DNA from: Gluconacetobacter sacchari
GTDB taxonomy: Bacteria > Pseudomonadota > Alphaproteobacteria > Acetobacterales > Acetobacteraceae
Direction of reading: 5' to 3'
Length of the DNA stretch: 64,000 nt
Assembly: GCF_014174255.1 (NCBI RefSeq)
Contig: NZ_JABEQJ010000017.1
Coordinates: 1 to 64,000 of the forward strand
Shown here: positions 5,994-60,300 of the stretch, piece after piece
How positions within the stretch are numbered: position 1 is the first letter of the stretch
Layout: each line of letters opens with the position of its first letter
Position numbers and translations under genes: made by a program
Notes under the pieces: generated by a model
Databases searched by the model: none
The model's input: only the letters and a program-made list of their open reading frames with translations
What the model was told of the DNA's origin: nothing

Positions 5994-6068
5994 TGCTCCC
6001 CGAAAACCGAGCCATTCTGAGTTGGAATTTTCCATTTATGATCCCGTACTCGGGATGAGGAGAGTTTC

Positions 6069-6335: not shown

Positions 6336-6358
6336 GGCCTGCGCGCAAACGCGAACTC

Positions 6359-25885: not shown

Positions 25886-25892
25886 AGCGCCC

Positions 25893-35553: not shown

Positions 35554-35596
35554 GACAGGAAACGACCAAACGGCTCGCTTCGCCAGCGTTCAAGGG

Positions 35597-35800: not shown

Positions 35801-35962
35801 GCTGGGAAACTCCGATCGCCCTGTCGTCGCATGTGGAGAAGAACCCGATATGACAAAGATGCTTCCGCCGGCTGATCGCGTCCACGTTCTGATCGTCGTG
35901 ATGGCGGCGAAGTTCATTGTCACTGGCGACGGCTGCGCGCAATCCCACTGGAAACCCTGACT

Positions 35963-36256: not shown

Positions 36257-36525
36257 CCCTGCGCGCGGCGACGGGCGATCACGTCGCGCAATTCGGCGAA
36301 GACGGTTTCGGCCGGGATGCTCGACCCGCTCTCATCACCAAGCCGGATCGCCTCGCGCAAGGTATCGAGATCGCGGCGGTCGGTATCGCGCCGGCGCATC
36401 CATTCGCGCAATGCCTCGCGCACCACCTCGCTGGTTGAGGCATATTCGCCGCCATCGACGGACTGGCGCAGGATCGCGGCCATCTCGGACGGCACGGTGA
36501 TGGTCATACGTTCGATCGTTGACAT
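36253..36525 (-). CDS. parD: ParD-family antitoxin
   Basis: A 90-residue antitoxin. The N-terminal RHH (RMTITVPSEMAAILRQSVDGGEYASTSEVVREALREWMRRRD) is followed by an acidic, flexible tail that should wrap ParE (LREAIRLGDESGSSIPAETVFAELRDVI). The ATG at 36523-36525 follows a strong GGGAGGAG ribosome site. It normally represses its own operon. Confidence 0.92.
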   Translation of the reverse strand: MSTIERMTITVPSEMAAILRQSVDGGEYASTSEVVREALREWMRRRDTDRRDLDTLREAIRLGDESGSSIPAETVFAELRDVIARRRAQG

Positions 36526-36614
36526 GAGGCGGCTCCTCCCAAGCGGGCATACTTTATCATACTTATGAAGCACCCGCTTTGTCAGCCGAAAACCTGCAGG
36601 CGGGCCAGCCAACA

Positions 36615-38369
36615 TCAAATCCCGAGCCCGCGCTTGCGCCCAAAATTCCAGTCCACCGCTCCACCCGGCGACATGGTCCCGGAAACCTGCCGTCCGAGCT
36701 TCTGCTCCAGCGCCGGGCGCCACGGCACGAACTGGAAGCCCAGCCCGTCATCGACCATGGCAAACCGACCCGAGGACAGGTCCACCCGTTGGCGATAGAC
36801 CCCCGAGACGATCTCGCCTTCCTTCGCGGGCCGGTGCTCTAACCCGGTCTGCGCGGCGAGCCTGGTCGCCGCCTGATCAAGATCCCGCTGGCGCAGGGTG
36901 CCAATCAAATCGGGTGCGAACACCACCCGTTCGCCCTGCCGCCGGGCCAGCCCCTCGGACGCCAGATGGTCGATCCGCCGCGCCATCGCCGCGCGGACCT
37001 CCGCGCCGAAGCCCGCATTGGCCAGTGCCGGCTCTTTTGCGAGTAACTGGCGATCTAGCCAGGTTGCACCGGGTGCCGTCACCTGCTCGGCCAGCGTGAA
37101 GTCCGAGCGCGTCGCCAGTGACAGGCACTGCGTGCCTTTGGCATCCTCCCAACTCCGGGTCTCGACAATCGCACCGGTCCTGGCATCGCCGGTCAACTCC
37201 AGATCGGGGAAGCGGACATGATGCGTCCGCCCGTCGGTGCCGGCTATGACCACGTAGCCGGAGCCTTTCAGTTCGTCATCCAGCCCGCGCTCGACCAGCC
37301 GGCCAATGACGGGATCGGCCAGCGTCTCGCCGTGGATCGCGAAACCCGCGACATCGGGTTCCACCCCGCCGCCGACCATCGCGCGGTGCATGGTCTTGAT
37401 GATGTCGCCCCGGATGGAAAGATCGCGCAGCGTCGCCTCCAGCCCCGGCTTGAGAGCCCAGCGCGCTACCCCGACTCGTTCGGCCAGGCCAAGCCCTTCC
37501 AGCTTGGTCGCCCGGCCAACCAGCAGGCGCCGCAGTTGCGGGTCTTCGGCACCCGCGCCCGGCCGCAGATCGACGATGCCGCCCCCTTGGTCGCTGATGT
37601 CCTGCAGCGCGCGATCGAGGCTGGTCCAGCGGTCGGCGCCGATCTCGGTCTCCAGGGCGGTGCGGATTTCCTGTTCGCTGCGCGGGCCAAGCTCCAGCGT
37701 CACCCGTTCGGCGGCACGGTCGCGCAGTCCCTGACTGATATAGGCGCGGCTGATCACCAGATCCTTGCCGTCATCGGCCACCCCGCGCACCAGGATGTGG
37801 ACGTGCGGATTGTCGGTGTTCCAGTGATCCACCCCGACCCAGTCCAGCTTTGTGCCGAGGTCGCGTTCCATGTCCTGCATCAGTTCCCGTGCGAAGCCCC
37901 GCAGGTCTTCCATCCGCGCCGCATCCTCGGGCGAGACGATGAAGCGGAAATGATGCCGGTCGTCTTCACAGCGTTCCGCGAAGGCCTTGCTGTCCGCTTC
38001 GTCAGACCCGGCATCGAACAGATGGGCCTTGGCACCGTCGCGGGTCACGCCCTCGCGTCTCAGATAGGCGATGTGGCGGGCGAGCGGCGCGGAACGAAGC
38101 CGCGTGCCCTGCTGGCGAACAACGCGCGCCTTGACCACGACCCGACGGGCATTGCTGCGCAGCCGCATGGACAGCGCCGCGCGTCGGCCGCGTCCGAAGC
38201 GGGAACCGCCGCCACCTCCCCTGCCCTTCGCGCCGAACCGGGTGCCGGTATGACCGGCCCTTTTCGCGGCACGCATGACCTCGCCGACGAAGGATTTCGG
38301 TCGTGCGCCCTGATTGCCATGCTGGATGCGTCCGGGCCGGACAGTCAGGCCGTCATCGCGCGTCGCCAT
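36615..38369 (-). CDS. VirD2-like relaxase (DUF3363 type)
   Basis: A 584-residue relaxase. The N-terminus is basic and Gly/Arg-rich (GAKGRGGGGGSRFGRGRRAA). The nuclease core has HFRFIVSPEDAARMEDLRGFARELM and the metal-binding HUH-type motif DHWNTDNPHVHILVRGV. The C-terminus is a DUF3363 region ending FQFVPWRPALEQKLGRQVSGTM. It would nick oriT and pilot the strand. The start MATRDDG at 38369 fits the family, and upstream sequence in frame is low-complexity. Confidence 0.92.
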   Translation of the reverse strand: MATRDDGLTVRPGRIQHGNQGARPKSFVGEVMRAAKRAGHTGTRFGAKGRGGGGGSRFGRGRRAALSMRLRSNARRVVVKARVVRQQGTRLRSAPLARHIAYLRREGVTRDGAKAHLFDAGSDEADSKAFAERCEDDRHHFRFIVSPEDAARMEDLRGFARELMQDMERDLGTKLDWVGVDHWNTDNPHVHILVRGVADDGKDLVISRAYISQGLRDRAAERVTLELGPRSEQEIRTALETEIGADRWTSLDRALQDISDQGGGIVDLRPGAGAEDPQLRRLLVGRATKLEGLGLAERVGVARWALKPGLEATLRDLSIRGDIIKTMHRAMVGGGVEPDVAGFAIHGETLADPVIGRLVERGLDDELKGSGYVVIAGTDGRTHHVRFPDLELTGDARTGAIVETRSWEDAKGTQCLSLATRSDFTLAEQVTAPGATWLDRQLLAKEPALANAGFGAEVRAAMARRIDHLASEGLARRQGERVVFAPDLIGTLRQRDLDQAATRLAAQTGLEHRPAKEGEIVSGVYRQRVDLSSGRFAMVDDGLGFQFVPWRPALEQKLGRQVSGTMSPGGAVDWNFGRKRGLGI

Positions 38370-38615
38370 GGCCCGCTCTCCGCTTCGATGTGCGCCTGAC
38401 GGCGCCCGGGCCGTTGAAAAGATTAGGAAAAATGCCCGGACAGCCGCAGGCGGTGCGGGGTGAGAGGACAAATTCCCCAATCAAACCAACCACATGCAGC
38501 CCTGAACGGGCGCTGCTTTTACCTTGCCGTCCTTCCCTCCGTTGCCAGCCTCCCCCCGGCACCCCATCCCCAATCCACCCATAGCCCGCCAGCGCCCGAT
38601 GGACCGGAACGGGGA
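38370..38615. other. Non-coding gap between relaxase and transglycosylase genes; oriT candidate region
   Basis: A 246-bp stretch without a good gene, in the midst of an otherwise gapless operon. It holds an AT-rich island (around 38415-38435) flanked by CCCGG repeats (GCCCGGGCC and GCCCGGAC). oriT often lies beside the relaxase gene, but I see no certain nic-site consensus. Confidence 0.3.
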
Positions 38616-39317
38616 TCATCGGCGCGCCTCCCCATGCCCTGACGCGATGAACAGCCCGGCCGATTGCGGTGCGAGCGCCGTCCAGTCGGTCATTCGGGAA
38701 CCAGATGAATGTGCCGGATCGTGTGCGCTATCGACAGGCCCGGACGCATCGCCCGTGCGCAGGAATGAGGCCGGAAAGAGGGAAGAATCCTGCCATGATG
38801 GTGCAGCCAGAGCGCCGACCGCGATGTCATCGGCAAGCGGAAGAGCCAGCCGCGCGCTGACCGACGCGACGTAGTTCCGCGTCTCGGCAGGCAGCGGCCG
38901 GCCGGTCGCGAGATGCTCGTCATAGCGCGCGGGACCGGCATTGTAAGCGGCGAGAAACCCGGCCTCGCCGTAGCGATCCCGCATCCAGCGCAGATAGGTC
39001 GCACCCGCCAGGATGTTGTCGTGCGGGTCGAACGGATCGTCGCCAAGGCCGAGCGACGTGCGCAGGCTGGCCCATGTTCCGGGCATCACCTGCATGAGCC
39101 CCATCGCACCCGCCGATGACACGGCCCGCGCATCGCCTCGGCTCTCCGCGTGCAGGACGGCAGCGATCCATGCGGCCGGAATCTGCGCGCGCGTGGCTGC
39201 TTCCGCGATCATGTCGGTGTAGGGATCGGCGACCGCGACATGCCCGGATATCGTCATGGAAACGACGACCGGAAGCGCGACACCGAACAGCCGTGGCCCC
39301 ATTTTACCGCCGATCAT
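38616..39317 (-). CDS. Lytic transglycosylase (SLT family)
   Basis: A 233-residue SLT-domain protein with a signal peptide (VALPVVVSMTISGHVAVADP). The catalytic Glu lies in AAVLHAESRGDARAVSSAGAMGLMQVMPGTW, followed by NILAGATYLRWMRDRYGEAGFLAAYNAGP. It opens peptidoglycan for the mating channel (VirB1-like role). The start may be 39317 (overlapping DUF736) or 39302. Both keep the signal peptide. Confidence 0.9.
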   Translation of the reverse strand: MIGGKMGPRLFGVALPVVVSMTISGHVAVADPYTDMIAEAATRAQIPAAWIAAVLHAESRGDARAVSSAGAMGLMQVMPGTWASLRTSLGLGDDPFDPHDNILAGATYLRWMRDRYGEAGFLAAYNAGPARYDEHLATGRPLPAETRNYVASVSARLALPLADDIAVGALAAPSWQDSSLFPASFLRTGDASGPVDSAHDPAHSSGSRMTDWTALAPQSAGLFIASGHGEARR

Positions 39318-39642
39318 CGCGCTTCACCGGACGGTTCCAGACCAGATGGAAGGCACGTCCCTGACGGTCGGACTGGAACAGGTTGGCCCGGATCGGCTGC
39401 GCCAGTATGGGGTCGTCGAGAACCAGCGAGAGATAGGTGCCCGCCTTCTCGCCGGTGCGTTTCCAGGCCGCGCCGACCTCCGGTCCGGCATCGGCGTCAC
39501 CAAGATGGACGCGATAGTCGGGCGCATGCTCGGCGTCCGACGATGTCGCCAGCACGATCGTCAGTTCGACGTCGAGGGCGAGCGTGCGCAGGCGCCCGGC
39601 GAAGCCGTCAGACGTGCGCGTGAAAGTTCCAATCTGGGCCAT
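39304..39642 (-). CDS. DUF736 family protein (element B, traF operon copy)
   Basis: A 112-residue protein with the DUF736 layout: MAQIGTFTRTSDGFAGRLRTLALDVELT, GPEVGAAWKRTGEKAGTYLSLVLDDPILAQPIRANLF and AFHLVWNRPVK. It equals the left-edge copy of element A in place and sequence type. It starts 1 bp after the traF stop. Function unknown. Confidence 0.9.
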   Translation of the reverse strand: MAQIGTFTRTSDGFAGRLRTLALDVELTIVLATSSDAEHAPDYRVHLGDADAGPEVGAAWKRTGEKAGTYLSLVLDDPILAQPIRANLFQSDRQGRAFHLVWNRPVKRDDRR

Positions 39643-39643
39643 G

Positions 39644-40186
39644 TCAGCCTCGTTTCTGCTTGGGGGTGGGAGACATCGATGACGGCACGAGCCACAGCGG
39701 CTGTGCACGGCCGAGCACTGCATCGACCGGCAGGACGCCGAAATAGCGGCCGTCGAGACTGGTCGGGACCGCCGGGTTCATGACGAAAATCTGCCCGGGC
39801 AGGACGTGCCGGCATCCCTGCCAGACCGGCAGCGGACGGCCGCGATGATCGCGGGCCAACGCATCGCCAAGCACCGTGCCATCGACCGAAACGACGGTGC
39901 CGATCCGGCAGACCAATTGCCCCGGCAGTGCCGCAACCGGCTTGAGCAGTGGCACACCGAGCGGCAGATAGCCGCCGTGCGCCAGCATCGTGGCAATGTC
40001 GGAGGGTGGCCGGATCGCGATCAGGTCGCCGACATGCAATGAGCGGGCCGATTGCAGGCGATACAGCCCGACCGGCGTGCTGGCGGTGGCATTCCAGATC
40101 AGGCGGGGCGCCGGATGGATCGCCAATGACGTGCCGGCACCGAGGACTGCGAAATACGTGGTGAAGAACCAGCCGAAGCGCGTCAT
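39644..40186 (-). CDS. traF: TraF-type S26 signal peptidase (element B)
   Basis: A 180-residue protein very similar to the 299-856 copy, with an N-terminal membrane helix, Ser36 in TASTPVGLYRL and Lys82 in PLLKPVAALPGQ. Its expected substrate is the TrbC pilin encoded about 13 kb away on the same strand. The start overlaps the DUF2840 stop (ATGA). Confidence 0.92.
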   Translation of the reverse strand: MTRFGWFFTTYFAVLGAGTSLAIHPAPRLIWNATASTPVGLYRLQSARSLHVGDLIAIRPPSDIATMLAHGGYLPLGVPLLKPVAALPGQLVCRIGTVVSVDGTVLGDALARDHRGRPLPVWQGCRHVLPGQIFVMNPAVPTSLDGRYFGVLPVDAVLGRAQPLWLVPSSMSPTPKQKRG

Positions 40187-40886: not shown

Positions 40887-41626
40887 GGCGAAATTCCTTC
40901 ACCGAGCGGCAGCACGGACGCGATACGGTCACGCGCCTTCTGCGCCATGACAGGATCGATCTCGCAGCCGACATAGCGCCGGCCAGCCAATCGGCAGGCG
41001 ACACCGGCCGCACCCGATCCGGCGAACCAGTCACCCACCAGACCGCCCGGCGGGCAGCTCGTACGGATCAGGATCTCCAGCAGGGCCACCGGCTTCTCGG
41101 TGGGATGGATGGCGCGGCCATGCGCATTGCGGACCGGAATCACGGAGCGCATCAGGCGCGGGCCGCCATCCTCGCTGACGTAATGGCCGGCATCGATCTG
41201 CCCCATATGCGGCGGCCGGTGTTTCCGCCGGACCGTGCGCGCCCGAGCGTCGGGCGTGGTCGGGACCGAGTTGTAAACGGCACGCCAGGGCGTATCGTCG
41301 CGATAGAACTGGACGAGCAATTCATGCACGCGGCGGAAACGGTCGGCATGGAAGCTGGAACCGTTCTGCTTCTCCCAGACCAGTTCCTGGGCATATTTCC
41401 AGCCCGCATTCCGGAATGCGGCGCTGGATGCAAGAAAGCTCCGCAGTGAACCGAACACCCAGAGCGAGCCACTCGGTTTCAGGGCGGCGAGCGCCTTGCC
41501 CGGCCAGTCCGGCACGCATCGGTCCCATGCGAGCGACGTATCGCCATAGGGGGGATCGACCAGGATCATGTCGTAGGGGCCGTGCCAGGGCATCAGGAGC
41601 GCGCTGTCGCCGGTCAGGAGGGTCAT
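40883..41626 (-). CDS. Orphan N4/N6 DNA methyltransferase
   Basis: A 247-residue amino-methyltransferase of beta-type order. The catalytic motif IV DPPY (residues 24-27, MILVDPPYGDTSLAWD) comes first. The cofactor region lies near the C-terminus: HPTEKPVALLEILIRTSCPPGG, then DWFAGSGAAGVACRLAGRRYVGCEIDP. No restriction enzyme is near. It lies inside the partition operon between parA and the RHH gene, coupled by 4-bp overlaps. A role in protecting or marking element DNA, or in regulation, is likely. Confidence 0.88.
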   Translation of the reverse strand: MTLLTGDSALLMPWHGPYDMILVDPPYGDTSLAWDRCVPDWPGKALAALKPSGSLWVFGSLRSFLASSAAFRNAGWKYAQELVWEKQNGSSFHADRFRRVHELLVQFYRDDTPWRAVYNSVPTTPDARARTVRRKHRPPHMGQIDAGHYVSEDGGPRLMRSVIPVRNAHGRAIHPTEKPVALLEILIRTSCPPGGLVGDWFAGSGAAGVACRLAGRRYVGCEIDPVMAQKARDRIASVLPLGEGISP

Positions 41627-42261
41627 GGCACCAGTCCCCCGATCTCGGCCGTCAGGGCGGCGATTTCGCGGGCTGCGATCCCGTGCGGGCGCAGGTCGCA
41701 GACCAGGCGGCCGGTGCGCGCGGCGTCGGCGAAAGCAATCCGCTGGCCGATCCGCGCCGCTAGAGCGGCAGGCTCATGCCCCACCAGCGCGAGCCGCGTT
41801 TCGCGGGCAATGACCGTGCGTGCGGCGCAGCGGTTGAGCACGAAGCGGGCCAACAGGCCGGGACGGAAGAGTCGCGCCTCTTCCAGCAGCCGCAGCATTT
41901 CTGCTGAGGCCCAGCCGTCGAACGGGGAGGGTTGCGCCGGGATCAGCACGAGGTCGGCCGCCAGCAGGGCGGAGCGCAGCAGCGCCGCCACCCGAGGCGG
42001 GCCGTCGATGACGACGTGATCCACCCCCTGAGCCAATTCCGGCGCCTCGTGGTGCAGTGTGTCGCGCGCCAGCCCGATCACGCCGAACAGCCGTGGCAGT
42101 CCCTCCCGCGCCCGCTGCGCCGACCAATCCAGCGCCGAGCCCTGCGGGTCGGCGTCGATGACCGTCACGCGCCGGCCTTCCCGAGCCCATTGGCCCGCGA
42201 GATGCAGCGCCAGCGTCGTCTTGCCGACGCCGCCCTTCTGGTTGAGGAAGGCCACGATCAC
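41623..42261 (-). CDS. parA: ParA-family partition ATPase
   Basis: A 212-residue ParA/MinD-like ATPase with the deviant Walker A KGGVGKTT (residues 9-16), the DADPQGSALDW motif and VVIDGPPRVAALLRSAL. The GTG at 42259-42261 is chosen because a GGAGAGG ribosome site precedes it and it overlaps the repA stop by 4 bp. An upstream in-frame GTG at 42285 is possible. It is the short type without an HTH, which usually works with a small RHH protein. Confidence 0.9.
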   Translation of the reverse strand: MIVAFLNQKGGVGKTTLALHLAGQWAREGRRVTVIDADPQGSALDWSAQRAREGLPRLFGVIGLARDTLHHEAPELAQGVDHVVIDGPPRVAALLRSALLAADLVLIPAQPSPFDGWASAEMLRLLEEARLFRPGLLARFVLNRCAARTVIARETRLALVGHEPAALAARIGQRIAFADAARTGRLVCDLRPHGIAAREIAALTAEIGGLVP

Positions 42262-43322
42262 CGCCCCTCTCCGGGGGTTTTCCACAGATCATGTGGGGTG
42301 CCAACATCCTTAAAGTTAGATTCTTTTAAGTTAGATTCTAAGTTAAGGGCGTCATAACCCTCTGATTCAATGTCGCGATTCGGCGATTTCTGTTCACATA
42401 AGCACGGTTTCGCTGTTCCCGAAGTCACGGCTTTCGCCGGTTCGGGCGTTCCCGATAGCACGGACGGACTCACAGTTTGTCCACATGAGGATGTGGATAA
42501 CCTGTCGCGAGAAAAGGTCAGGATTTCACACCCGTCAGCGGTCCGCTCGACCGCCAAGCGATAGCCGGGCAATGGCTGCCGCCGGACGATGCCGCGGAGT
42601 TCGAACGCGAAGCGACGGTATGGCGACAGGCTGGCCGATTTGAGATGCAGGACATGGAAATCGAATTTCCAGCCTGAGCGCTGGCGGCCGCCATGCTTGC
42701 GGACCAGCCGATAGAGCCAGCGCTCCATTCCGCCGGTCAGTCGGAAATAGGCCGGGTCGATGGTCAGCACCAACGCGTCATCGAGCACGGCCTGGTAAAA
42801 CCAGTCCGGCAGGATCAGCTCGACCACGCGGGCGCGGCCCTCCTGCGTGGTATGCCGCTTCCATTCGTTGATCCAGGAAAACCGGTGCAATTGTCCCGCA
42901 CCGGCGTGGCGCAGCGAGGTCTTGATCGTGGTGGATTGCAGCCGGTCGAAAGCCGCTTCCAGCCGTTGGTAATCCCGCGCGCTGTCGCCCCGGCCGATGA
43001 AGGCCAGGATTTCATGCGGCGTCGCCACCATCAGACGCGAGGTGCAACGACCCGCGTCCCGTGCTTCCACGATCTGGCTCGCCGCCCAGATCAGCACGTC
43101 GGCATCCCAGATCGTGGCCATGCCATGTTCGCCGGTCGCTTCCACGCGGATGGTGACGTCCGGGGTCCGGAAATCGATCGGCACGGTCCGCACTGTCTTG
43201 GACAGGCTGAAGAACGGAAATGCCATCAGATCCTGCGCGTCGCGCGGGGCGAGTGTGCCGGGGATGGCGCGGAACACCGCGAGCTTCGCGCGCTCGGACT
43301 GGTTCCGATCGGGCGTACGCAT
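42258..43322 (-). CDS. repA: Replication initiator protein A, RPA family (element B)
   Basis: A 354-residue initiator. It shares with the element A RepA GMATIWDADVLIW, LTIDPAYFRLTGGMERWLYRLVRKHGGRQRSGW and the following region. The C-terminus diverges and ends in an Asn/Leu/Ser repeat (NLESNLKESNFK) written by AT-rich tandem repeats. It also contains a perfect DnaA box (42492-42500). The ATG at 43320-43322 overlaps the HTH stop. The pattern suggests an origin within the gene. Confidence 0.9.
   Translation of the reverse strand: MRTPDRNQSERAKLAVFRAIPGTLAPRDAQDLMAFPFFSLSKTVRTVPIDFRTPDVTIRVEATGEHGMATIWDADVLIWAASQIVEARDAGRCTSRLMVATPHEILAFIGRGDSARDYQRLEAAFDRLQSTTIKTSLRHAGAGQLHRFSWINEWKRHTTQEGRARVVELILPDWFYQAVLDDALVLTIDPAYFRLTGGMERWLYRLVRKHGGRQRSGWKFDFHVLHLKSASLSPYRRFAFELRGIVRRQPLPGYRLAVERTADGCEILTFSRDRLSTSSCGQTVSPSVLSGTPEPAKAVTSGTAKPCLCEQKSPNRDIESEGYDALNLESNLKESNFKDVGTPHDLWKTPGEGR
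42313..42346. repeat. Iteron-like AT-rich direct repeats inside repA
   Basis: AAGTTAGATTCT occurs at 42313 and 42328 (15-bp period), with a partial third copy AAGTTAA at 42340. They lie in the last 100 bp of repA. They also encode an Asn-Leu-x-Ser repeat, so protein repeat and DNA repeat cannot be separated from sequence alone. Confidence 0.6.
42492..42500 (-). promoter_or_regulatory. DnaA box within repA
   Basis: The minus strand reads TTATCCACA, the exact consensus. The adjacent TGTCCACAT makes an inverted pair with it. It lies about 150 bp from the iteron-like repeats. Confidence 0.6.
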
Positions 43323-43615
43323 CAGCGTCTGTTCCCGCGTGAGGTCGCCGGTGTCGGCGGGATCAGCGGACTTTGCCGCGCGGCGGCCGACACGGTGCCG
43401 GCGGTGGTATCCGAGGTATGGGCGCGTGCCCCGCTCTCGACCCAAGCCTGCAACTCGTCGACCCGATAGACCACCCGGCCGCCGAGCTTCGAATAGCGCG
43501 GACCAGTGCCGTAAATCCGGTGTTTTTCCAGTGTGCGAATGGACAGTCCGACGAAGCGCGAGGCGTCGGGCGTGCGCAGATAGCGCGGCGGCAGATCGCT
43601 GTAATTGGCGGACAT
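43322..43615 (-). CDS. Small HTH (AlpA/MerR-like) protein upstream of repA (element B)
   Basis: A 97-residue protein with LRTPDASRFVGLSIRTLEKHRIYGTGPRYSKLGGRVVYRVDELQAWVESGARA, the same HTH and wing as the element A protein (2411-2665), and a Thr/Ala/Pro-rich tail. It heads the repA-parA-methyltransferase-RHH-DUF2840-traF-DUF736 operon. The region before the ATG (GATCACGGAGC on the coding strand) closely matches that before the DUF736 gene at 53103. Confidence 0.82.
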   Translation of the reverse strand: MSANYSDLPPRYLRTPDASRFVGLSIRTLEKHRIYGTGPRYSKLGGRVVYRVDELQAWVESGARAHTSDTTAGTVSAAARQSPLIPPTPATSRGNRR

Positions 43616-43784: not shown

Positions 43785-46700
43785 TCAATGAAAATTTCTT
43801 GATTTTACGGAGAGTGTCTCGACTGAATGATCCACAGCAGCTCCATGGCCTCGGTCGAAATCGCGGTTGCCGACATCGGCGAGCAGCGCGGAGAGATCGG
43901 TGATCTCCAGCGCCACCAAATGCACGACTTCGCCCTCCTTCTGGAGCCGCCCCTTGATGCCGAGCATCTGCCCCGCAAGGATGACACGGCGATATTTTTC
44001 GAAAATATCCTTCCAGATAATGACATTGAGGACGCCGCTTTCATCCTCCAGGGTCAGGAACACGACGCCTTCGGCGGAGCCGGGGCGCTGGCGCACCAGG
44101 ACCAGCCCCGCGGCATCCAGCCGCTTGCCATCGCGTGCCTCATGGGCTTCACGGCAGGAAAAAAATTTCCGCTGGCGCAGATCGTCGCGGAGAAAGGCGA
44201 CGGGATGATCGCGCAGTGTCAGGCCGATCCGGTTATAATCGCGCGTGACCTCAGCCCCGGCGCGCATCGGCTGGAGCAGCACGTCCGGCTCCTCGGCCTC
44301 GCGCGCGACGGCCGCCGCCGCGAACAGCGGCAAAGGCTCGTCCCGCAGCGCCTTGATCGCCCACAGCGCCTCGCGCCGGGCGAGGCCGAGCGCCGGCCGG
44401 AAAGCATCGGCTTCCGCGAGATGGGTGAGTGCCGCGACCGGTACGCCGGCGCGGCGCCAGAGATCGTCCACCGATGCGAAGGGCCGCGCTCCGCGCGCAG
44501 CAACGATGCGGGCGGCGTCAGCATTGGCGAGGCCTTTGACCAGGCTCATGCCGAGCCGGACGGCGAACCGGCCGCACGCCGTTTCCGGCCCTTCGAGCGT
44601 GCTATCCCAGCGGGAGGCGTTGACGCAGATCGGCCGGATCCCGACGCCATGCTCGCGCGCGTCGCGCACCAGTTGCGCGGGCGCGTAGAAGCCCATCGGC
44701 TGGGAATTGAGCAAAGCCGCCAGAAACACGTCGGGATGATGGCATTTCAGCCAGGAGGAAGAATAGGCGAGGATCGCGAAACTCGCCGCATGGCTCTCGG
44801 GGAATCCATAGGATCCGAACCCTTCGAGCTGCTGGTAGATCCGCTCGGCGAATTCTTCTGTATAGCCGTTCGCCTTCATGCCCTCGACCAGCTTGGTCTG
44901 GAACCTGCCGATGGTACCGGTGTTCTTGAAGGTGGCCATCGCGCGGCGCAATTGATCGGCCTCGCTGGCGGTGAAATCAGCGCACACCATGGCCACCTGC
45001 ATCGCCTGTTCCTGGAACAGCGGGATGCCCAATGTCTTTTTCAGAACCTTTTCCAGTTCGGGGGTGGGATACTCTTCCGGCTCGATGCCCTCACGCCGGC
45101 GCAGATAGGGATGGACCATATCACCCTGAATCGGACCGGGGCGGACGATGGCGACCTCGATCACCAGGTCATAGAACACGCGCGGTTTCAGCCGTGGCAG
45201 CATCGACATCTGCGCCCGGCTTTCGATCTGGAAGACGCCGATCGTGTCCGCCCGGCGGATCATGGCGTAGGTCAGCGGGTCCTCGGCCGGGATGGTGGCG
45301 AGCGCGAAGCGCTGCCCCTTATGCTCGGCCAGCAGATCCAGCCCCTTCTTCATGCAGGTGAGCATGCCCAGCGCCAGGATATCGACCTTCATGAATTTGA
45401 GGACGTCGATATCGTCCTTGTCCCATTCGATGATCTGACGATCATCCATCGCGGCGGGCTCGATCGGCACCAACTCGTCGAGCCGGTCATGGGTCAGCAC
45501 GAAGCCCCCCGGATGCTGCGACAGATGCCGCGGCACGCCGATCAGGCAGCACGCCAGATCCAGCGTCAGCCGGATGCGCCGATCGGACAGGTCGATACCG
45601 GTATCCCTGAACTGCTCCGGATCGGCATTTTTCGACCAGCCCCAGATCTGACCGGACAAGGTGCCGATCAGATCCTCGGGTAGGCCCATCACTTTGCCCA
45701 CATCCCTCAACGCGCCCTTGGCCCGGTATCGGATCACCACTGCGGTCAGGGCGGCGCGCTCACGGCCATAATGCCCATAGACCCACTGGATCACCTGCTC
45801 GCGCCGCGCATGCTCGAAATCGACATCGATATCCGGGGGCTCACCCCGTTCCTCCGATACGAACCGTTCGAATAGCAGCGAATTGCGCGCCGGATCGATG
45901 GCGGTGATGCCCAGCACGTAGCAGACCGCGCTATTGGCCGCCGAGCCACGGCCCTGACAGAGAATGTCCTGACTGCGGGCATAGCGGACAATGCTGTTCA
46001 CGGTGAGAAAATACGGCGCGTAATTCATACGCCCGATCAGGGCGAGTTCGTGATTCAGGCTGGCCGTTACCTCGTCGGGAATCCCTTCGGGATAGAATCT
46101 CCGCGCCCCCTCCCAGGTCAGCACTTCGAGGGCCTGCTGCGGCGTCTGGCCCGGCACCGAAACTTCATCGGGATATTGATAGGCGAGATCGTCGAGGCTG
46201 AAGCGACAGCGCTCCATGATCGCGATCGTGCGGTCGACCGCCTCGGGATAGCGGCCGAACAGGCGCGCCATCTCCTGTGGCGGCTTGAGATAGCGATCGG
46301 CGTGGCGCTCGCGCGCGAAACCCGCCTCGTCGATGGTGGTGTTGTGCCGGATGCAGGTCACGACATCCTGCAGGATGCGCCGGTCATGGGTGTGGAACAG
46401 CACATCGTTGGTCACAACGGTGGGCACGCGTGCCCGATGGGCAAGATTCGCCAACGCGTAGAGCCGCATCTGGTCGTTGGGCCGACGCAGCAGGGTCAGC
46501 GCCATATAGGCGCGGTCATGGAACGCGTCCTTCAGCTTGCGCAGATGCAAGGCGCAGGCCTCGTCCGCGACGTCGGGGACCAGGATGGCGAGCAACCCGT
46601 CGCCCCAGGCCACCAGGTCTTCCCAGAGCAGATGGCATCTGGCCTTGCCGGCACGGCTCTTGCCCAGGCTGAGCAGCCGGCACAGGCGGCCGTAGGCCGC

Positions 46701-46949
46701 GCGGTCGGTCGGATAGACCAGCACCGGCGGGAAATCGGCGAGGTCGAGGCGACAGCCGACGACCAGCCGGACGCCGGTGGCCCTCGCCGCGACATGGGCC
46801 TGCACCATGCCGGCCAGGGAATTGCGGTCGGCGATGCCCAATGCCGCGATACCGAGCGCCCTCGCCTGCTCGAACAGTTCGAGCGGCGACGACGCCCCGC
46901 GCAGGAACGAGAAATAGCTCGTCACCTGCAATTCGGCATAGCGGCTCAT
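43785..46949 (-). CDS. dnaE2: Error-prone DNA polymerase III alpha (DnaE2/ImuC)
   Basis: A 1054-residue C-family polymerase, full length. It has an N-terminal PHP domain ([40 protein letters not shown]), the polymerase palm with catalytic Asp in [14 protein letters not shown], a fingers region ([31 protein letters not shown]) and a C-terminal OB domain. It performs translesion synthesis in SOS mutagenesis with ImuA and ImuB. Starts within the imuB stop. Chromosomes of this group usually have their own copy, so this one is probably an extra, mobile mutasome. Confidence 0.94.
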
Positions 46950-48469
46950 CCGAAGATCCCATGCAGAAACCAGCCTTGCGAGCCGGTTTCCCCGTGCTCG
47001 CCGTCACCCGAGCGATAGACCCAGAACCGCTCGCCGGATGCGTCCTCCAGACGGAAATAATCGCGCACCGTGGTCAGTTCGGCATCGCCCTGCCACCATT
47101 CGCCGAACACCCGTTCCGGCCCATCAGCGCATTTCACCTTCCGCCGCACTCCACGCCAGATGAAGAACAGCGGCGGCTGATCCGGCAGTTCCGCCATGGC
47201 CTGCACCGGCTCCGGCCGCGCCAGCAGGCGTGTCGGACGTGGCCAGTGCTCCGGCCAATCCTTCTGGTCGTCCGGCGCCAGCGCCGGCACTCGACAGAAG
47301 GACCGCTCCGGCACATCGCTCTCCACCGGAGCGAAGCGATACAGGGAACGATGGCCCACGCGATTGGCCAGGGTATCGATCAGATCCGAAACATCCGGTT
47401 CTTCCTCCGCGATCAGCGAGGAGATTTTCTGGCGCGGCGCGATCGGCTCGGCCAGTGTGGCGGTCAGGACCATACGCTCGATGCCAAAACCCGGATCGAT
47501 GGTTTCGATCTTCTCGCACAGCAGCCTGACCAGGCGCTTGGCGTCGCGCACCGGCGTCGCGGTGGCGATGCGGATCGCCTCGGTGCGGCTGTCGACGCGG
47601 TGCAGCACCAGGTCGAGACGCCGGGCTCCCTGCCCGCGTTCTTCCAGTCCCTGACAGAGCGGCGGGACCAGCCTGCCGATATAGCGGGCAATCGTCTCGG
47701 CGGCCCCGATCGGTTCGGCAAAATTCCGGCTGACCATGACCGGGTCAACCGGCCGGACCGGCAGGATGGCCTCACTGATGCGACCATAGGCCTGGTCCAG
47801 CCGGCGGGCGACGTCCGGCCCGAAGCGGAGCGCAAGCGGCGCGCGCGGCATCGCGGCGAGCGGAGCGATGGTCGCGACGCCCAGCGCCCGCAGGTCCTCG
47901 ATCATATTGTCCGGCAGGCGCAGGGCCTCGATCGGCAGGTCCGCGATCGCGGCGGCCGTCTCCCCGGCCGGCACCACCAGAGTGCGCGCGCGGCCATAGC
48001 GCGCCAGCGCATGGGCTGCGCCCAGCGTGTCGGCGACCACAGCCTTGGCTGTGATGCCGGCGTCTCGCAGCCGCCGCACCATTTCCGCCAGCATGGCCGG
48101 CTCGCCGCCATGCAGATGATCGGCGCCGGTCGTATCCAGCACCAGACCGTCAGGCACGTCCACCGCCACCAGGGGGGCGATCCGCTGCTGGAACCACAAC
48201 GCCAGTTTCTCCAGCCCGGTCCGGTCGCCCTCCTGGTCGGCATCCATGGTGATCAGATCAGGGTAAAGCGCCTGCGCCTTGGCGACCGGCGTGCCGGGAC
48301 GCACGCCCGCCTTGCGGGCGGCGAGATCGACCGAAAGCACGACGCGGCGTCGTCCCTCGCGCCCGACCAGCGCCAGCGGCGCCTCAGGCGCGGGTGCGTC
48401 GGCGCCCAGCCTTTTCCTGATCCGGTCCGTCGGCCACAGCGGCAGGAAGAGAGAGACGACCCTTGCCAT
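46946..48469 (-). CDS. imuB: ImuB, Y-family polymerase-like mutasome hub
   Basis: A 507-residue Y-family-like protein starting [19 protein letters not shown]. The palm is recognisable ([33 protein letters not shown]), but ImuB proteins lack active-site acidic residues and serve as adaptors to the beta clamp and DnaE2. The C-terminus ends with the family-typical WFLHGIFG. It overlaps imuA by 86 bp and dnaE2 by 4 bp. Confidence 0.92.
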
Positions 48470-49145
48470 CGCAAGCCTCCACTTCGAAATCGGCGGATTC
48501 TCCCGCCCGCGCCCGGATCAGTTCCAGCAGCCAGCGCGCCCGTCCGACGCCGGGCACCGGCAGGGATTCAGACGGCAGGACCGAAATCCGCCAGCGCGTG
48601 ACACTGGCGGTCGGCTGGCCGAAATCAGCCGCCTCGGTCTGCCGGCGCCAGCGGCGGACGGCGATCCCCAGCGCGCCGGACGTCTCGGCCGCCAGTTGCA
48701 GCCGGCGGGAGGCGGTCATCGACAGACGCGCGACCTCGGCCACGACGGCACCCAGACCGCCATGCCGCAGTCCCTCCTCGAAACAGGCCAGGACATCCTG
48801 GTCCGCCCCGGCCTCGACATAGATCACCCGGCTTCCACCCAGTCCGACCTGTTTCAGGGCGGGGGCGAACAGATCCTGGCGGGTGACAATCCACAGCACC
48901 TTGCCCTTGGTGCGCGCGGCGATGCCGGCGGCGAACTGCCCGGCGGCCGCGCTGTTGAGGGCGTCGTTCCCGCCGCCTGCCACCTCGTGCAAGGCGCCGA
49001 GCGCCAGGCCGCCACCCGGCAGGCGGCGATCGATGTCACGGATGCCAAAGGGCAGCACGGCCCGTCGGCGGGTGGCCGATCCTTCGAGACGGCGGATCTG
49101 GTCCCGCAGCGCCTCCAGCGGGGGACGGGATAGGGGCGTGGACAT
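48384..49145 (-). CDS. imuA: ImuA, RecA-like SOS mutasome protein
   Basis: A 253-residue RecA/SulA-like protein (MSTPLSRPPLEALRDQIRRLEG ... AVLPFGIRDIDRRLPGGGLALGALHEVAG). The ATG at 49143-49145 follows the LexA box by about 50 bp. It is the first gene of imuA-imuB-dnaE2. It helps mutasome function through contact with RecA and ImuB. Confidence 0.92.
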   Translation of the reverse strand: MSTPLSRPPLEALRDQIRRLEGSATRRRAVLPFGIRDIDRRLPGGGLALGALHEVAGGGNDALNSAAAGQFAAGIAARTKGKVLWIVTRQDLFAPALKQVGLGGSRVIYVEAGADQDVLACFEEGLRHGGLGAVVAEVARLSMTASRRLQLAAETSGALGIAVRRWRRQTEAADFGQPTASVTRWRISVLPSESLPVPGVGRARWLLELIRARAGESADFEVEACDGKGRLSLPAAVADGPDQEKAGRRRTRA

Positions 49146-49194
49146 GGTCGATCGGTTTCCGGGATGGGTTCCCAACCGGCGGTCGGGGTCTTTT

Positions 49195-49209
49195 GTTCCC
49201 TATTTGTTC
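49195..49209. promoter_or_regulatory. LexA (SOS) box before imuA
   Basis: GTTC-CCTATTT-GTTC, an exact GTTC-N7-GTTC alphaproteobacterial LexA site, 50 bp upstream of the imuA start. DNA damage should induce the mutasome genes. Confidence 0.88.
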
Positions 49210-49535
49210 CTTACTCTATCCAAGAGTCAACGCCGCATCGCACGTGCAGGGGTCGCCCCAGGCGGAAAAGCCGGAATCGACATCGTGGCAGCGACACCGT
49301 GATTCCATTGCAGGACAGGGGGTTACGTCCGCAGCGCTGAGAGCGCCCCCCTCTCGACGGCTTGAACGCGGCGCAAGGCCAGGCCGTCATGCACGGCGCC
49401 AGAGCCGGGATCCGCCGTCCGCCCGAGTCCCCGACCACCAGGGGCAGGTCAGGATGGCGCAACTTCGCGAAAAATAATGTGTTCCTTGCCTTCGCTCCAT
49501 GCGTTCCTCCCATTGCCGCATGTATGGAGATACCG
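49210..49535. other. Intergenic region between imuA and the membrane-protein gene
   Basis: Apart from the LexA box at its edge I see no gene or clear structure. Open frames here run through the region only as extensions of the next gene. Confidence 0.5.
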
Positions 49536-49946
49536 ATGCCCGACGATCTTCCCGCGGTTCGGACGCAAACCCTGGCCCGTATCATCGGGCCCTATCTCGT
49601 GGTGCTCGCTGTCGCGTTGTTCGCCCGCCTGGGCACATTGCCCATGCTGCTGCCGGTCTTCATGCAGAACGGCCCACTGGTGCTGGCCACCGGCGCGTTC
49701 ACCCTGATGGCGGGCCTCGCCATCGTCGCACTCCATCTTCGGTGGGAGAGCCCGAGTGCGATTGCAATTTCTCTGATCGGCATTGTCATCACGCTCAAGG
49801 GCGCGGCGCTCATGGTTGTGCCGAGCCTCGGCGCCGCCATGACGGCCGCGATCGTGGAAACGCCCCCGCTGTTGCTGATCGCCGCCGCTATCGTACTGCT
49901 GTTAGGCCTTTGGCTGAGCTTCGTCGGCTGGACTTCGCGGGCATAG
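49536..49946 (+). CDS. Four-helix membrane protein, unknown function
   Basis: A 136-residue protein with four hydrophobic segments (IIGPYLVVLAVALFARLG, GPLVLATGAFTLMAGLAIVAL, IAISLIGIVITLKGAALMVV, LLLIAAAIVLLLGLWLSFVGW). The ATG at 49536 follows a GGAG ribosome site. It is read together with the SRAP gene 36 bp downstream. No family name recognised. Confidence 0.7.
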   Translation: MPDDLPAVRTQTLARIIGPYLVVLAVALFARLGTLPMLLPVFMQNGPLVLATGAFTLMAGLAIVALHLRWESPSAIAISLIGIVITLKGAALMVVPSLGAAMTAAIVETPPLLLIAAAIVLLLGLWLSFVGWTSRA

Positions 49947-49982
49947 CCATCGCGTGCGAGACGAGGGAAGAGAAAGCGATCC

Positions 49983-50642
49983 GTGTGCAATCTGTTTTCG
50001 ATGACCACCAACCAGCAGGCGATCCGCGACCTCGCAAAGGTCATGGTCGACCGCACCGGCAATCTCCCGCCGTTACCTGGCATCTATCCCAACATGATGG
50101 CGCCGATCGTTCGCAATTCGGTGGACGGGCGCGAACTGATGATGGCGCGCTGGGGGATGCCGACGCCGCCCCGCTATCTCGCCGGCAAGACGGTCGATCG
50201 GGGCGTGACCAACATCCGCAATCCGCAGTCGCCGCATTGGCGGCCGTGGCTCGATGTCGCGCATCGCTGCGTCGTGCCCTTTACCAGCTTCGCCGAGCCC
50301 GAACCGCAGCCGGACGGTTCCCGGCCGCCGGCCTGGTTCGCGTTCGGTGAGACGCGTCCGCTCGCTTTCTTTGCCGGCATCTGGTGCCGGTGGACGTCCG
50401 TGCGCAAGGCGAAGGACGGAGAGACGACGGACGACCTGTTCGGCTTTCTTACGACAAAGCCGAACCACGAAGTCGGAGCCATTCATCCCGAGGCCATGCC
50501 GGTGGTCCTGGCCACCGGGGAGGAGATCGACCGCTGGATGACGGCGCCGATCGACGATGCGCTGCTCTTGCAGAACCCGTTGCCTGACGGCACGCTGACC
50601 ATTGTTGCCAGGGCGACCCCGGAAGACCCATCACGGCAATAG
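49983..50642 (+). CDS. SOS response-associated peptidase (SRAP/HMCES/YedK family)
   Basis: A 219-residue SRAP protein. The catalytic Cys2 (MCNLFS) is exposed after Met removal. Conserved NIRNPQSPHW, VVPFTSFAEP and AIHPEAMPVVL (active-site His) are present. These enzymes form a thiazolidine crosslink with abasic sites in single-stranded DNA and so protect them, relevant to DNA entering as a single strand by conjugation. It lies close to the mutasome, but no LexA box precedes it. Confidence 0.9.
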   Translation: MCNLFSMTTNQQAIRDLAKVMVDRTGNLPPLPGIYPNMMAPIVRNSVDGRELMMARWGMPTPPRYLAGKTVDRGVTNIRNPQSPHWRPWLDVAHRCVVPFTSFAEPEPQPDGSRPPAWFAFGETRPLAFFAGIWCRWTSVRKAKDGETTDDLFGFLTTKPNHEVGAIHPEAMPVVLATGEEIDRWMTAPIDDALLLQNPLPDGTLTIVARATPEDPSRQ

Positions 50643-50652: not shown

Positions 50653-51418
50653 CTATCGTCCCCGGAACGGATGGAGCAGCAGGCGCCGGTATCCTCCTTC
50701 TGTCAGCACGCGCGCGAAACGCACCAGCCGTTTCATGCGGAAATGCAGATCGTGCGAGAGCCAGTCCCGTGAGGAAACCTTCTGACCGAAAAGGACGAAC
50801 GCGATCTCATGCTGCGTCGCCCCGGCGTCCAACCCATCGAGCGTACGGAGCGCCAGGATCAGCCGAGTGACCCGATCTGGCGACAAGGTCGCGGGATCGG
50901 GTCCGGAGCGCCGGCCCATCAACGCGCGCCAGAGCCGCAACGCGGCCTGGACGCGCACCTCGAACAGGGCGTCGAGCGGCAGGACGACAGAGAGGGCTTC
51001 GATCTCCGACGTCACCAGATGCAGGCGCAGAACGACGCCGGGGCGCTCAAGCAGGAGTTCACCAACCTGGCCCGCCGGCAATCCGATAAAAACGGAGGTG
51101 AACGGCGGGTGATCCGGGTCAGCGAGACCGGTCGGTGCTTCCATCAGCGCGATCACGCCCGGCAGCACCGCAGCACTCCACAACGCAGTACGCGGGTTCA
51201 GCGCAGTGCGGACACTTTCGAAATCGCAACCCCCAGCGCCGGGCGAACGCCTCGGCATCTGGCTGCATCAAGGCACCCCGGCGCAGGGCGCGCTGAAGGG
51301 TGGCACGCTCACGGATAAAGTCCCGATTGCGACTGACAAACTGCAAGGCAAAGGCAGGGGCGTCGAGCGACCGCAGGCCCTCGTACGCGCCCGCCGACCG
51401 CCAGGTGGCGCGGCTCAT
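50653..51418 (-). CDS. fseA: FseA-like ICE activator, DUF6499-DUF2285 joined by +1 frameshift (element B)
   Basis: The zero frame starts at 51418 (MSRATWRSAGAYEGLRSLDAPAFALQFVSRNRDF), encodes DUF6499 up to FARRWGLRF (Phe66), then runs into an unrelated Cys-rich tail (RKCPHCAEP) and stops at 51119. The DUF2285 domain (TALNPRTALWSAAVLPGVIALMEA ... FRMKRLVRFARVLTEGGYRRLLLHPF) is in the +1 frame and ends at 50653. Skipping C51220 after CGA-TTT fuses them into 254 residues. The site and domain boundary equal those of element A. This supports programmed +1 frameshifting as in rhizobial FseA rather than a mutation. Confidence 0.82.
51219..51226 (-). promoter_or_regulatory. Candidate +1 programmed frameshift site (CGA-TTT-C)
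   Basis: CGATTTCG on the minus strand, in the same TGGGGG-NN-GCGATTTCG context as at 3529-3536. Slippage of tRNA-Phe from TTT to TTC gives the DUF2285 frame. Confidence 0.72.
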
Positions 51419-51550: not shown

Positions 51551-51829
51551 TCAGTGGGGGGCGCCGCCACGCAGCAGATGCTGGTAGCCATGCTTGGTCA
51601 TCCAGTGCGCCCGAGCCAGATGGCTGTGCCAGCAGCGGTGGACACCATCGGGATCGGCCGCCGGGTCGCGGTGGAGCACGATCCGGGCGACCTCGCGCCA
51701 GTCCGCACCGTCGGCCTCGGCGTCCAGCAGACGCAGATAGGTGATGAGGTGCTGTTCGTCGTAGCCGGTGAGACAGGACGCTTCCGGGGCGCTGTCGGCG
51801 ACGGGCGGGTCGAGCGGGGGCTTCTGCAT
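51551..51829 (-). CDS. Single-domain DUF2285 protein, QseM-like antiactivator candidate
   Basis: A 92-residue protein: LTGYDEQHLITYLRLLDAEADGADWREVARIVLHRDPAADPDGVHRCWHSHLARAHWMTKHGYQHLL. This is one DUF2285/RovC-like HTH unit, with the AxWMxxxGYxxLL end also seen at the C-terminus of the FseA-like protein. In ICEMlSymR7A the small DUF2285 protein QseM binds and blocks FseA. Here it lies between xre and the fseA-like gene on the same strand, so the same role is likely (inference). Confidence 0.78.
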   Translation of the reverse strand: MQKPPLDPPVADSAPEASCLTGYDEQHLITYLRLLDAEADGADWREVARIVLHRDPAADPDGVHRCWHSHLARAHWMTKHGYQHLLRGGAPH

Positions 51830-51840: not shown

Positions 51841-52125
51841 TCAGGTCGGAGAACGAACGCGACGCACCCTAGCCTGCCGCGCTTCATTACCGGAAGTCTC
51901 GTGAAGAAACATGACGCCGCGTCCTTGTCCGGACTCGATGAACAGGATGCCCGCCGCCTCCAGCGCACGGCGGACCTGGTCGGTCGTGCCCTCATGGACG
52001 CCGAGACCGCGTTCGGATTCAAGGCGCTTCAGCGCGGTCAGTGCTACGAGGGCTTTTTCAGCGAGCATCTCCTGTGTCCAGTTCAGAAGTGCCCGTGCCG
52101 CCCTAACCTGTCGGCCAGTGATCAT
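51841..52125 (-). CDS. XRE-family HTH regulator (QseC-like position)
   Basis: A 94-residue protein with an N-terminal Cro/C1 HTH (MITGRQVRAARALLNWTQEMLAEKALVALTALKRLESERG) and the common TTDQVRRALEAAGILFIE tail, ending in an Arg-rich stretch. It is followed after 11 bp by the qseM-like gene. Palindromes at 52118-52135 (over its start) and 52168-52182 are candidate operators. The rhizobial counterpart would be QseC, which controls qseM. Confidence 0.82.
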   Translation of the reverse strand: MITGRQVRAARALLNWTQEMLAEKALVALTALKRLESERGLGVHEGTTDQVRRALEAAGILFIESGQGRGVMFLHETSGNEARQARVRRVRSPT

Positions 52126-57335: not shown

Positions 57336-60300
57336 TCAGGACACACGCTCCATCAGCCTGCGGGCCTTCTCTTCCAGATCCAGCCGCGTGTCCTGATTGG
57401 CCTTCGTCCGCGCCAGGGCGGTGATCCCCTGCACGAAATCGAACACGCTCTCGGGCTTGCGGCCCTCCTCGTGCAGGACCGTTTCTATGATTTTCGTGGT
57501 TTCCGGTCTGGAGAACCCACGACGACGCAGGAAACTTTCGCGGTCCTCGTCATTTTTCGCCACCAGCGCCCGGCGTGACGCCTGGATGCCCGAGACAAAC
57601 GACGCTGGGCTGGCCGTGGCGAAGTTCCGTAGCGCTGGCGTCGCCTGATGCACGAAACGGGACGCTGCAAACTTGCTATGCCGGATCGTGATCTGTTCGA
57701 AATTTTCGACGCCGTCGGGTAGGGGCGAGACGTCCCGATGGGATAGTCTCTACCCCTCCCACGGAACCGGACGTGATAGTTTCCCATCATCCGGCTCCTA
57801 CGCTTGCACCATATGTGACAGTCTGGCCTGTAAACGCCCGGCATGATGGGCAACATGACAGTCATGACAGAGCACCACACGCTTGCGCGTCCGTGCTGCC
57901 TTGACCTGAGTCCACAATGTGGTCCCCTGCATATCACTCATCTTACGGGCATGATGTACCTCCAACGGTATGTCTTCCATCTTGCACGCCTGACAGGATC
58001 GTGCGCGCAGTTGATCGACAATGTCGTTCCTGCCCGCAAAATGCCTTAGCGTCGTGATCTGACGGTCGACATATGGAGGTGTCCGATCGATCTTGATATC
58101 GGCCAGACGAAACATCGGCATGAACCGTCGCTGTGTGCGACCTTCATACCACAGGCCGAGGCGATCCTCAGTCCGGAGCCTCGCTACCGTTTTCGCAACC
58201 GAACACTTATGCTTCCGCGACAGGGTCTTCATCAAACTCCACCACCAGATGTGGTAAAGTCTGCCGATCTCCTGCTTCCAGAGCGTCCCAAGTTTATAAT
58301 ACTCGGCCAGCCCCCGCATCAGCGCATTATATCCGGTCAGGATCGCGATATCGGAATTGTTGATCAGTTCACACCGTGCCTCACCCCGGTTGATGTGAAT
58401 ATTCCCGAGGCGCTGCCTTTCGGCAAAACGAACTAGACGGTCAACGGGGACATGAAGCTGCATGCGATCATCAGGAATGCGCTTGGTGACGGCACGATTA
58501 CCGGCCACCATTCGCTTTGTCCGACCATCGCCATACGTCTTCAGGCCATACCCGAGGAACGTGGCCCCTTCGTCTGCCTTGCTGATCCCACTTTTCTCCT
58601 CGGAGACCAGCAATTTAAGATGGTGTCCAAGAAACTCCTGAACCTCCACCATTATCCTGCGGGCCTCCTCCTTGCTGCCAATGATGCCGATGACAAAATC
58701 ATCGGCATATCGACAATAACGGAGACGACGGAAATCAGGATCAAACGGATCAACAGACGGCATCTCCTGACGCCGCCGCTCCCATTCCCTGATCTCTTCC
58801 AGCAGAATGGGGATTTCTTTCTCTTCTCCCCATACACGCCGTCTTTCGATCTTTCTGCGTCTTATCTGGATCTGTTTGGAGCATTCCAGATAATGGGCGC
58901 TTCGCTTCCGACCCGCCCCCTTGTCGAACCGGGCTTTCATTTCCCCCATGAACTCATCAAGTTCATGAAGGTATATGTTGGCGAGGATCGGCGAGATGAC
59001 ACCACCTTGAGGCGCCCCGCTGAATGTCCGGTGGAACACCCAGTCTTCAAGATAGCCAGCCTTGAGCATCCGCCCGATCAGCCGTATCAAACGCTCGTCA
59101 TCGATACGTTTTCTTAACAGACCGAGAAGAATTTCATGGTCGATATTGTCGTAATATCCAACGATATCAACTTCGATCAGCCACTTGATGCCATGCCATG
59201 TGCGCCTGATTTCCGTCAGTGCAGTATGACATGACCGCCCTTTGCGGAACCCGTGCGACTGTTCGGCGAAAACCGGCTCATAGACGTGTTCGAGCAGAAT
59301 TTTCACCGCCGCCTGCACGAGCTTGTCGTCAGCGGTGGGAATGCCCAGCGGGCGTTTCTTCCCGTTGGGTTTGGGGATATATTGCCTGCGCGCCGGGGAA
59401 AAACGATATGATCCGTCCATCACAGCGGTTCTGACCCTTTCCAGTCTTTCAAGCGAGAAGCCGTCGAGAGTATTTTCGGGGTCAGTTCCGGGCGTAAGCG
59501 CCCCTTTATTCGGGGCGATCTGCTCGTATGCCTGTTCCCAGAGGAGCGGGCAGCCAAGCAGCCTGAACAGGCCATTGATACGTTTTCCCTGACGAGACAG
59601 TCCTACGATCGAGTCCAGTCTCTTCTCTACGGTATCCGGTTGCATCAGCAGACCTCCGTCATGAAGTTGAACAGACCCAGCAAACGCGCCGCCCTTCACC
59701 CGCGCAGAGGGGATTCCCCATCCGGTTGCCCGGTCAGTTTCACCCGTGCCCGTCCATCCGGAGATGGCTGTCCCGGGAGTTACCCCGGGCGTTTGGCTAT
59801 TATGGCGGCTCCGTCGCCTTACGGGACACCGGAGAGGTGCCCGCTTAGGCGATCCCGTGTTTACGCGATCAGTGAGATGCGACGTGGTTAGGTGGCCCGT
59901 TCGATCGTTGGGCTCTCGACGAGAGCTGGACCGTGCGACCAAGTTTAGGAAGACGCTATGGGGTAGTCTTCCCTTCGCACGGCATGGCGCGTCAACCATT
60001 GCTGCGCCACGACCCGGCATAAGGTTCCTGAATCTAGGCTTCACGCAGTTTAGCATTCACCATACACGTCTTGCCCTGACGTCCCGCTAACCTACAATGG
60101 TTTCGGCCCGGAGACGCCTTTTCCCGACATGCTATTGTCCCCTGCCGGTTTCCCGGTCGCAGCCATTGCTGGCCAAGGTAAGTCGGGTGGGCATCAGGCA
60201 GTTCCTGGTTCCCTGAGAAGTCATCCTCCACTCAATTGATCGCGCCACCACGGCGCACCCACAACATACGATTTTGACACACTCCGCGCAGATAGAATGA

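Follow-up and report, generated by a model that had tools for sequence, protein, structure and literature searches.

The minus-strand locus at positions 50653–51418 of the window, the whole 64 000-nucleotide stretch of Gluconacetobacter sacchari DNA analyzed here, is an fseA gene with a probability of about 0.92: a +1 slip at UUU_C would add a DUF2285 half to its DUF6499 half, and the joined product would be an activator antagonized by a QseM-like protein. The identification draws on the domains, gene order, reading frames, biased codon use at the site and conservation observed in this analysis. FseA and its +1 programmed frameshift have already been published, and the locus, which we call fseA-B, is the copy of an acetic acid bacterium. 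According to PMC10359603, msi172 (DUF6499) and msi171 (DUF2285) of ICEMlSymR7A together yield FseA through a +1 programmed frameshift of low frequency; the shift site is conserved across the alpha-, beta- and gamma-proteobacteria, and some 61% of 4709 homologues are split in this manner. The same text describes rdfS as activated by FseA and QseM, a DUF2285-only protein, as binding DUF6499 and antagonizing FseA. Our mapping of the slip to UUU_C is put forward as an independent inference, with no claim to priority.

Two reading frames meeting at a repeated junction

The zero-frame ORF of fseA-B (51119–51418, minus strand), equivalent to msi172, runs from an ATG at 51418 to a TGA at 51119 (99 codons), the same interval that was singled out in the preliminary description. 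Its product has a DUF6499 domain (PF20109, E = 2e-15), followed by WGLRF and a 33-codon tail to the TGA. The +1-frame part, equivalent to msi171 (50653–51219, minus strand), comprises a middle region and a DUF2285 domain (PF10074, E = 1e-30); the ORF listing starts this frame at 51258 and the frame closes at 50653. Both domains score above the Pfam cut-offs, and the halves appear from sequence to be joined in the +1 register at a conserved site, as in FseA. The frameshift signal that we propose from comparison is TGG GGG TTG CGA TTT C (51220–51235, minus strand), in which a Shine-Dalgarno-like GGGGG (51230–51234, minus strand) is set off by a 6-base spacer from the candidate slip codon UUU (51221–51223, minus strand), with the C at 51220 as the base that would be skipped. 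The genome as a whole has six DUF6499 and nine DUF2285 matches.

The junction sequence TGGGGGNNGCGATTTCG occurs exactly at 51219–51235 and at 3529–3545, both on the minus strand, and once more without mismatch on another contig of the same genome (C49:12827–12843). With up to two mismatches allowed, the window holds three matches against 0.40 expected, a count reached in none of 100 shuffles, and the reversed pattern, used as a control, gave no match. The copy at 3529–3545 is the +1 junction of a second fseA gene, that of element A (2939–3716, minus strand), whose zero frame encodes DUF6499 (PF20109, E = 3e-14) and whose +1 frame encodes DUF2285 (PF10074, E = 6.5e-18). The earlier claim that the two elements share the TGGGGG context and the domain boundary is therefore borne out, as TGGGGGNNGCGATTTCG is exact in both and DUF6499 and DUF2285 are split alike. 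The zero-frame tails had been given as 35 codons in B and 5 in A; the difference stands, and the lengths counted after the UUU codon are close, at 33 and 4. Upstream of the element A gene, no DUF2285-only match was found in the stretch examined (window 2939–7174). By eye, transposase-like ORFs can be read there.

Conservation of the register and of both frames

Junctions were gathered from order-level (a relative of the B half in 71 of 299 genomes), class-level (PF20109 in 25 of 385 genomes) and phylum-level searches (43 of 398 genomes), from named loci and from the window's own genome; the three search lists overlap in some genomes, and the listed places were fetched in part. Of 206 DUF6499 matches, 7 were dropped because no DUF2285 partner accompanied them, and a further 4 in-frame rows (L133, L158, L181 and L195) because they had no Trp near the junction; the remaining 195 rows gave 155 distinct junction windows in 93 clusters at 80% nucleotide identity. 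The register is +1 in 70 clusters and in frame in 22, the latter including four (L134, L164, L166 and L167) whose Trp does not resemble the WG motif. The single cluster in another register, L145, has a DUF2285 match that begins late; in both L142 and L145 the junction looks intact and the DUF2285 match is late, which suggests later decay of the second half.

Closest to fseA-B are 28 named loci from 27 acetic acid bacteria, one of which has two loci, including members of Gluconacetobacter, Ameyamaea, Asaia, Novacetimonas, Komagataeibacter and Acetobacter. All 28 are in the +1 register and 27 have the identical 17-base junction, which makes a sequencing error unlikely; the remaining locus, L034, differs by one G to A. 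L034 (3001–3582) is one of the two loci of Komagataeibacter diospyri, with TGGGAG in place of TGGGGG (a GGGAG run) and UUU_C intact. Among six plasmid loci, five have the UUU_C site (L208, L209 from Mesorhizobium loti pML2037, L210, L212 and L213), and in the sixth, L211, which has transposase genes beside it, the site pattern was not matched. L208 (2811–3576) places fseA on the 16.6 kb mobilizable plasmid pGDIPal5II, where it is annotated as two CDSs, the second starting well past the junction.

Selection on both halves can be read from 30 distinct aligned sequences of the B clade. Upstream of the site the most variable class of columns (mod 2) is the zero-frame third position (48/65 versus 35 and 33), a signal confined to the nearest 105 bases, with little or none in the 5-prime 90 bases. 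Downstream, the most variable class (mod 0) is the +1-frame third position (187/194 versus 126 and 118). The most variable codon position moves by one base across the site, and the 18 site columns themselves are invariant in the clade except for the one G to A in L034. A single-base register change beside a G run is what a decayed gene or a sequencing error could leave, but all 28 named loci and 70 clusters share the register, which, together with the codon-position pattern on both sides, makes this reading extremely improbable. The preliminary description had argued that the out-of-frame join is selected, and the +1 register in 70 of 93 clusters and the codon-position switch agree with it; as to the indel error or unconserved site that it had allowed for, an indel is unlikely and the site is kept in relatives.

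UUU_C as the most likely slip site

Of the 70 +1 clusters, 68 have UUU as the fifth codon of W-G-L-x-F, the exceptions being L117 (TGT_C) and L129 (ACC at this position, with TTT one codon later). Elsewhere in the same genes, Phe is encoded by UUU in 154 of 502 cases (31%; Fisher 9e-32 versus the junction codon). In 65 clusters the base after the fifth codon is C and in 5 it is T, and the codon that follows reads CGN in 31 clusters and CCN in 32. Among in-frame clusters the fifth codon is TTT in 0/22 and TTC in 4/22; the in-frame Phe count (TTT 1, TTC 4) includes L145, the other-register cluster. In 17 of the 22 in-frame clusters W-G-L is retained in the zero-frame register, which places the shift most likely after the third codon. 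A DP motif stands two residues past the fifth codon in 14/22 in-frame clusters, and the same spacing is obtained in 38/70 +1 clusters when one base is skipped after UUU. Since the motif was not found in 30/70 +1 and 8/22 in-frame clusters (in 2 it is positioned elsewhere), the spacing argument rests on the remaining clusters. Taken together, the constancy of UUU and the DP spacing make UUU_C the most likely slip codon, with the frames joined after W-G-L-x-F and one base skipped; tRNA-Phe would re-pair one base on, with UUC or UUU. PMC10885494 lists UUU with the codons that slip most readily ahead of a stop in +1 shifts.

Constraint extends over the rest of the signal. CGA makes up 40/48 Arg codons at the junction versus 210/2075 elsewhere (6e-31), TTG 38/59 third-codon Leu versus 226/2064, and GGG 51/66 Gly versus 149/1097 (9e-29); with GGG, CGA and TTG also enriched, all 16 bases are constrained beyond the protein. 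The second codon varies among the 70 clusters (GGG 51, GGT 9, GGC 6, AGG 3 and CAC 1), and the first is TGG in all 70, TGG having been the search anchor of the script. The preliminary description had taken a TGGGGG heptamer for the shift site, which lies too far upstream given this variation and the UUU in 68 of 70 clusters. The conservation check that it proposed, run on the 70 +1 clusters, confirms that the site is kept, but the most constant part is UUU_C and not TGGGGG. A shift on the GGGGG run itself, by a ribosomal slip from GGG to GGU or by loss of one G in transcriptional slippage, would fit the enrichment of GGGGG (51/70) and the account of UGGGGG as ribosome-binding-site-like in the accessible text of PMC10359603. 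We regard it as very unlikely, since clusters with GGGGT (9), GGGGC (6), GGAGG (3) or GGCAC (1) are still +1, W-G-L is held in the zero-frame register by those 17 in-frame clusters, and the G run is less constant than UUU.

The two halves might instead be separate proteins, the DUF2285 half having its own initiation without any frameshift. They are annotated as two genes in pGDIPal5II, an Azorhizobium pair is argued to have its own starts and stops in the part of PMC9601964 at hand, and a start codon is present in the open +1 frame within 240 bases upstream of the site in 45/70 clusters (ATG in 24). This count covers the 240 upstream bases, starts downstream of the site being left out, and 25/70 clusters are without a start codon there, while a Shine-Dalgarno-like sequence with a start occurs in only 7. 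In-frame fused relatives also exist, and separate initiation leaves the UUU_C bias unexplained, so we give this reading hardly any weight.

The G run as a likely upstream stimulator

Because UGGGG is already fixed by the coding of W-G, the informative base of the run is the third of the Gly codon only. The predicted anti-Shine-Dalgarno pairing averages -8.2 kcal/mol in the 70 +1 clusters and -1.7 kcal/mol in 2336 background windows, and the mean of -5.5 kcal/mol for the 22 in-frame clusters includes the 4 without the WG motif. L007, L107 and L117 have Arg (AGG) in place of the WG glycine, which yields the canonical Shine-Dalgarno core GGAGG; in these three clusters the replacement alters the protein and keeps the pairing. 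On these comparisons TGGGGG looks less like the place of the slip than like a Shine-Dalgarno-like stimulator six bases upstream of the slip codon, and some +1 relatives alter TGGGGG yet retain UUU_C.

Downstream RNA structure was considered as a stimulator and rejected, as the 60 bases downstream are predicted to fold less stably than same-gene controls (-17.4 versus -19.3 kcal/mol; 70 clusters, Wilcoxon p 0.0045).

Gene neighbourhood of element B

Just upstream of fseA-B on the same strand are a DUF2285-only gene (51551–51829, minus strand; PF10074, E = 4e-9), a putative antiactivator gene that is QseM-like by domain and position, and an XRE-type helix-turn-helix gene (51841–52125, minus strand; PF01381, 23.6 bits with a cut-off of 23), QseC-like by position only. 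DUF736 and DUF7146/Toprim genes lie on the opposite side of fseA-B. As expected for an fseA gene, the element also has RdfS-like, relaxase and type IV secretion system (T4SS) genes, all downstream of fseA-B: an RdfS-like helix-turn-helix (HTH_17) gene (43322–43615, minus strand; PF12728, E = 2e-6), assigned by PF12728 and gene order, stands ahead of two backbone genes of element B, for replication initiator A (RPA) and for ParA (41623–43445, minus strand). These are accompanied by genes for an S26 peptidase (TraF-like by order), an SLT transglycosylase, a DUF3363 relaxase and a T4SS coupling protein (33571–40186, minus strand) and by TrbE/TrbB-type mating-pair formation genes (23459–27450, minus strand).

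Between fseA-B and the RdfS-RepA block, positions 43785–50642 hold DNA polymerase III alpha-type, impB/mucB-family and SRAP genes, the first probably DnaE2-like judging by its company, as if repair cargo sat inside the element's regulatory region. A group II intron-type reverse transcriptase/maturase gene with an HNH domain is found at 57798–60056 (minus strand), and no tRNA genes were found in the window.

Similar gene orders recur on plasmids. In pGDIPal5II (G. diazotrophicus) the order is DUF736, hypothetical, DUF2285, DUF6499, DUF2285, antiporter, HTH, RepA, ParA, and in Sphingopyxis pMC4 it is HTH, DUF2285, DUF6499, DUF2285, HTH, RepA. Among the 43 +1 clusters having at least 900 nt upstream, a DUF2285-only match is present upstream in 26 and absent in 17, including element A. 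A search for FseA boxes (inverted hexamers, 16 bp apart) showed a single exact pair ahead of either RdfS-like ORF, against 0.096 and 0.106 expected, but by eye both pairs are arms of longer terminator-like hairpins, and neither is a clear FseA box; for element A the listed TTG start was used. As to quorum-sensing genes, a single AHL synthase match was found in the genome, on contig C42, and LuxR-type matches on C42 and C43 (two in all), with none on the window contig, C17, so that a link to TraR would be hypothetical.

Comparison with known systems

As in R7A FseA of Mesorhizobium japonicum, DUF6499 and DUF2285 are joined +1 at a UGGGGG-containing junction, near a conjugation backbone with adjoining DUF2285-only and HTH genes and with RdfS-like, RepA, ParA, S26 peptidase and relaxase genes. 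Element B differs from R7A in that the AHL synthase and LuxR-type genes of the genome are on other contigs, that a DUF2285-only gene is just upstream of fseA (which follows traI2 in R7A, as published), and that about 7 kb of other genes stand between fseA-B and its RdfS-like gene. The AWEFLRRN motif of FseA (DUF6499 helix 2) also reads ALQFVSRN in fseA-B, with the equivalents of F34 and R37 kept and those of W32, E33 and R36 changed.

A profile of four joined products searched against solved structures matched RovC (6xz5, 5e-13) and, weakly, QseM (7uqt, 0.003), while phmmer with the +1 half alone gave no match up to E 1. Three further chains in the profile search, with E from 0.2 to 0.65, were taken as chance. 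The relation to RovC, an activator of type VI secretion, is one of sequence profile, best over DUF2285; RovC regulates another system than that proposed for fseA-B and is encoded in a single reading frame.

The closest mechanistic likeness is to the prfB (RF2) +1 frameshift, which, in the accounts available, also combines an upstream Shine-Dalgarno stimulator with a P-site tRNA slipping by one base. There the slip is at CUU followed by the stop codon UGA, whereas in fseA UUU has a sense codon after it, in 63/70 clusters CGN or CCN. The Shine-Dalgarno spacing is 3 in prfB and 6 at the fseA site. The UCC_UUU_CGU +1 shift of influenza A PA-X, as available accounts give it, likewise has UUU before a C-starting sense codon, but it takes place on eukaryotic ribosomes with no Shine-Dalgarno element and serves as an analogy only.

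Proposed mechanism and implications

We model the slip and its efficiency, the pause, the DNA target, antiactivation and a function of fseA-B in excision on the R7A system. Ribosomes that read straight through would yield the short DUF6499 protein. A fraction would come to UUU with UGGGGG, the Shine-Dalgarno-like element, six bases behind them, and the pause and the following codon (CGA here; CGN/CCN in most relatives) may let tRNA-Phe slip from UUU to UUC, so that translation passes over one C and appends the DUF2285 half. The joined protein would activate transcription of the genes with which the element excises and transfers itself (the rdfS operon), and would be antagonized by the neighbouring QseM-like protein, which would bind its DUF6499 half. 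That the whole FseA family uses this kind of signal is a tentative proposal to which we give a little less than an even chance: tRNA-Phe would slip by +1 at a sense codon, on UUU_C/U, with a Shine-Dalgarno-like GGGGG/GGAGG at the 6-base spacing of initiation and CGN/CCN mostly next, and without a stop codon or strong downstream RNA structure.

Both conjugation-gene clusters in the window carry the FseA switch, and the comparison narrows down the codon at which the frame changes, which bears on how a gene-transfer activator is held at a low level. For annotation the comparison matters too, as fseA is listed as two genes in pGDIPal5II, pML2037 and pMC4, and the TGGGAG of L034 offers a natural variant bearing on the weight of the stimulator. 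If the family-wide slip on UUU_C/U is true, it would form a distinct bacterial class of +1 frameshifts and would provide a pause at which QseM can catch the nascent DUF6499 domain.
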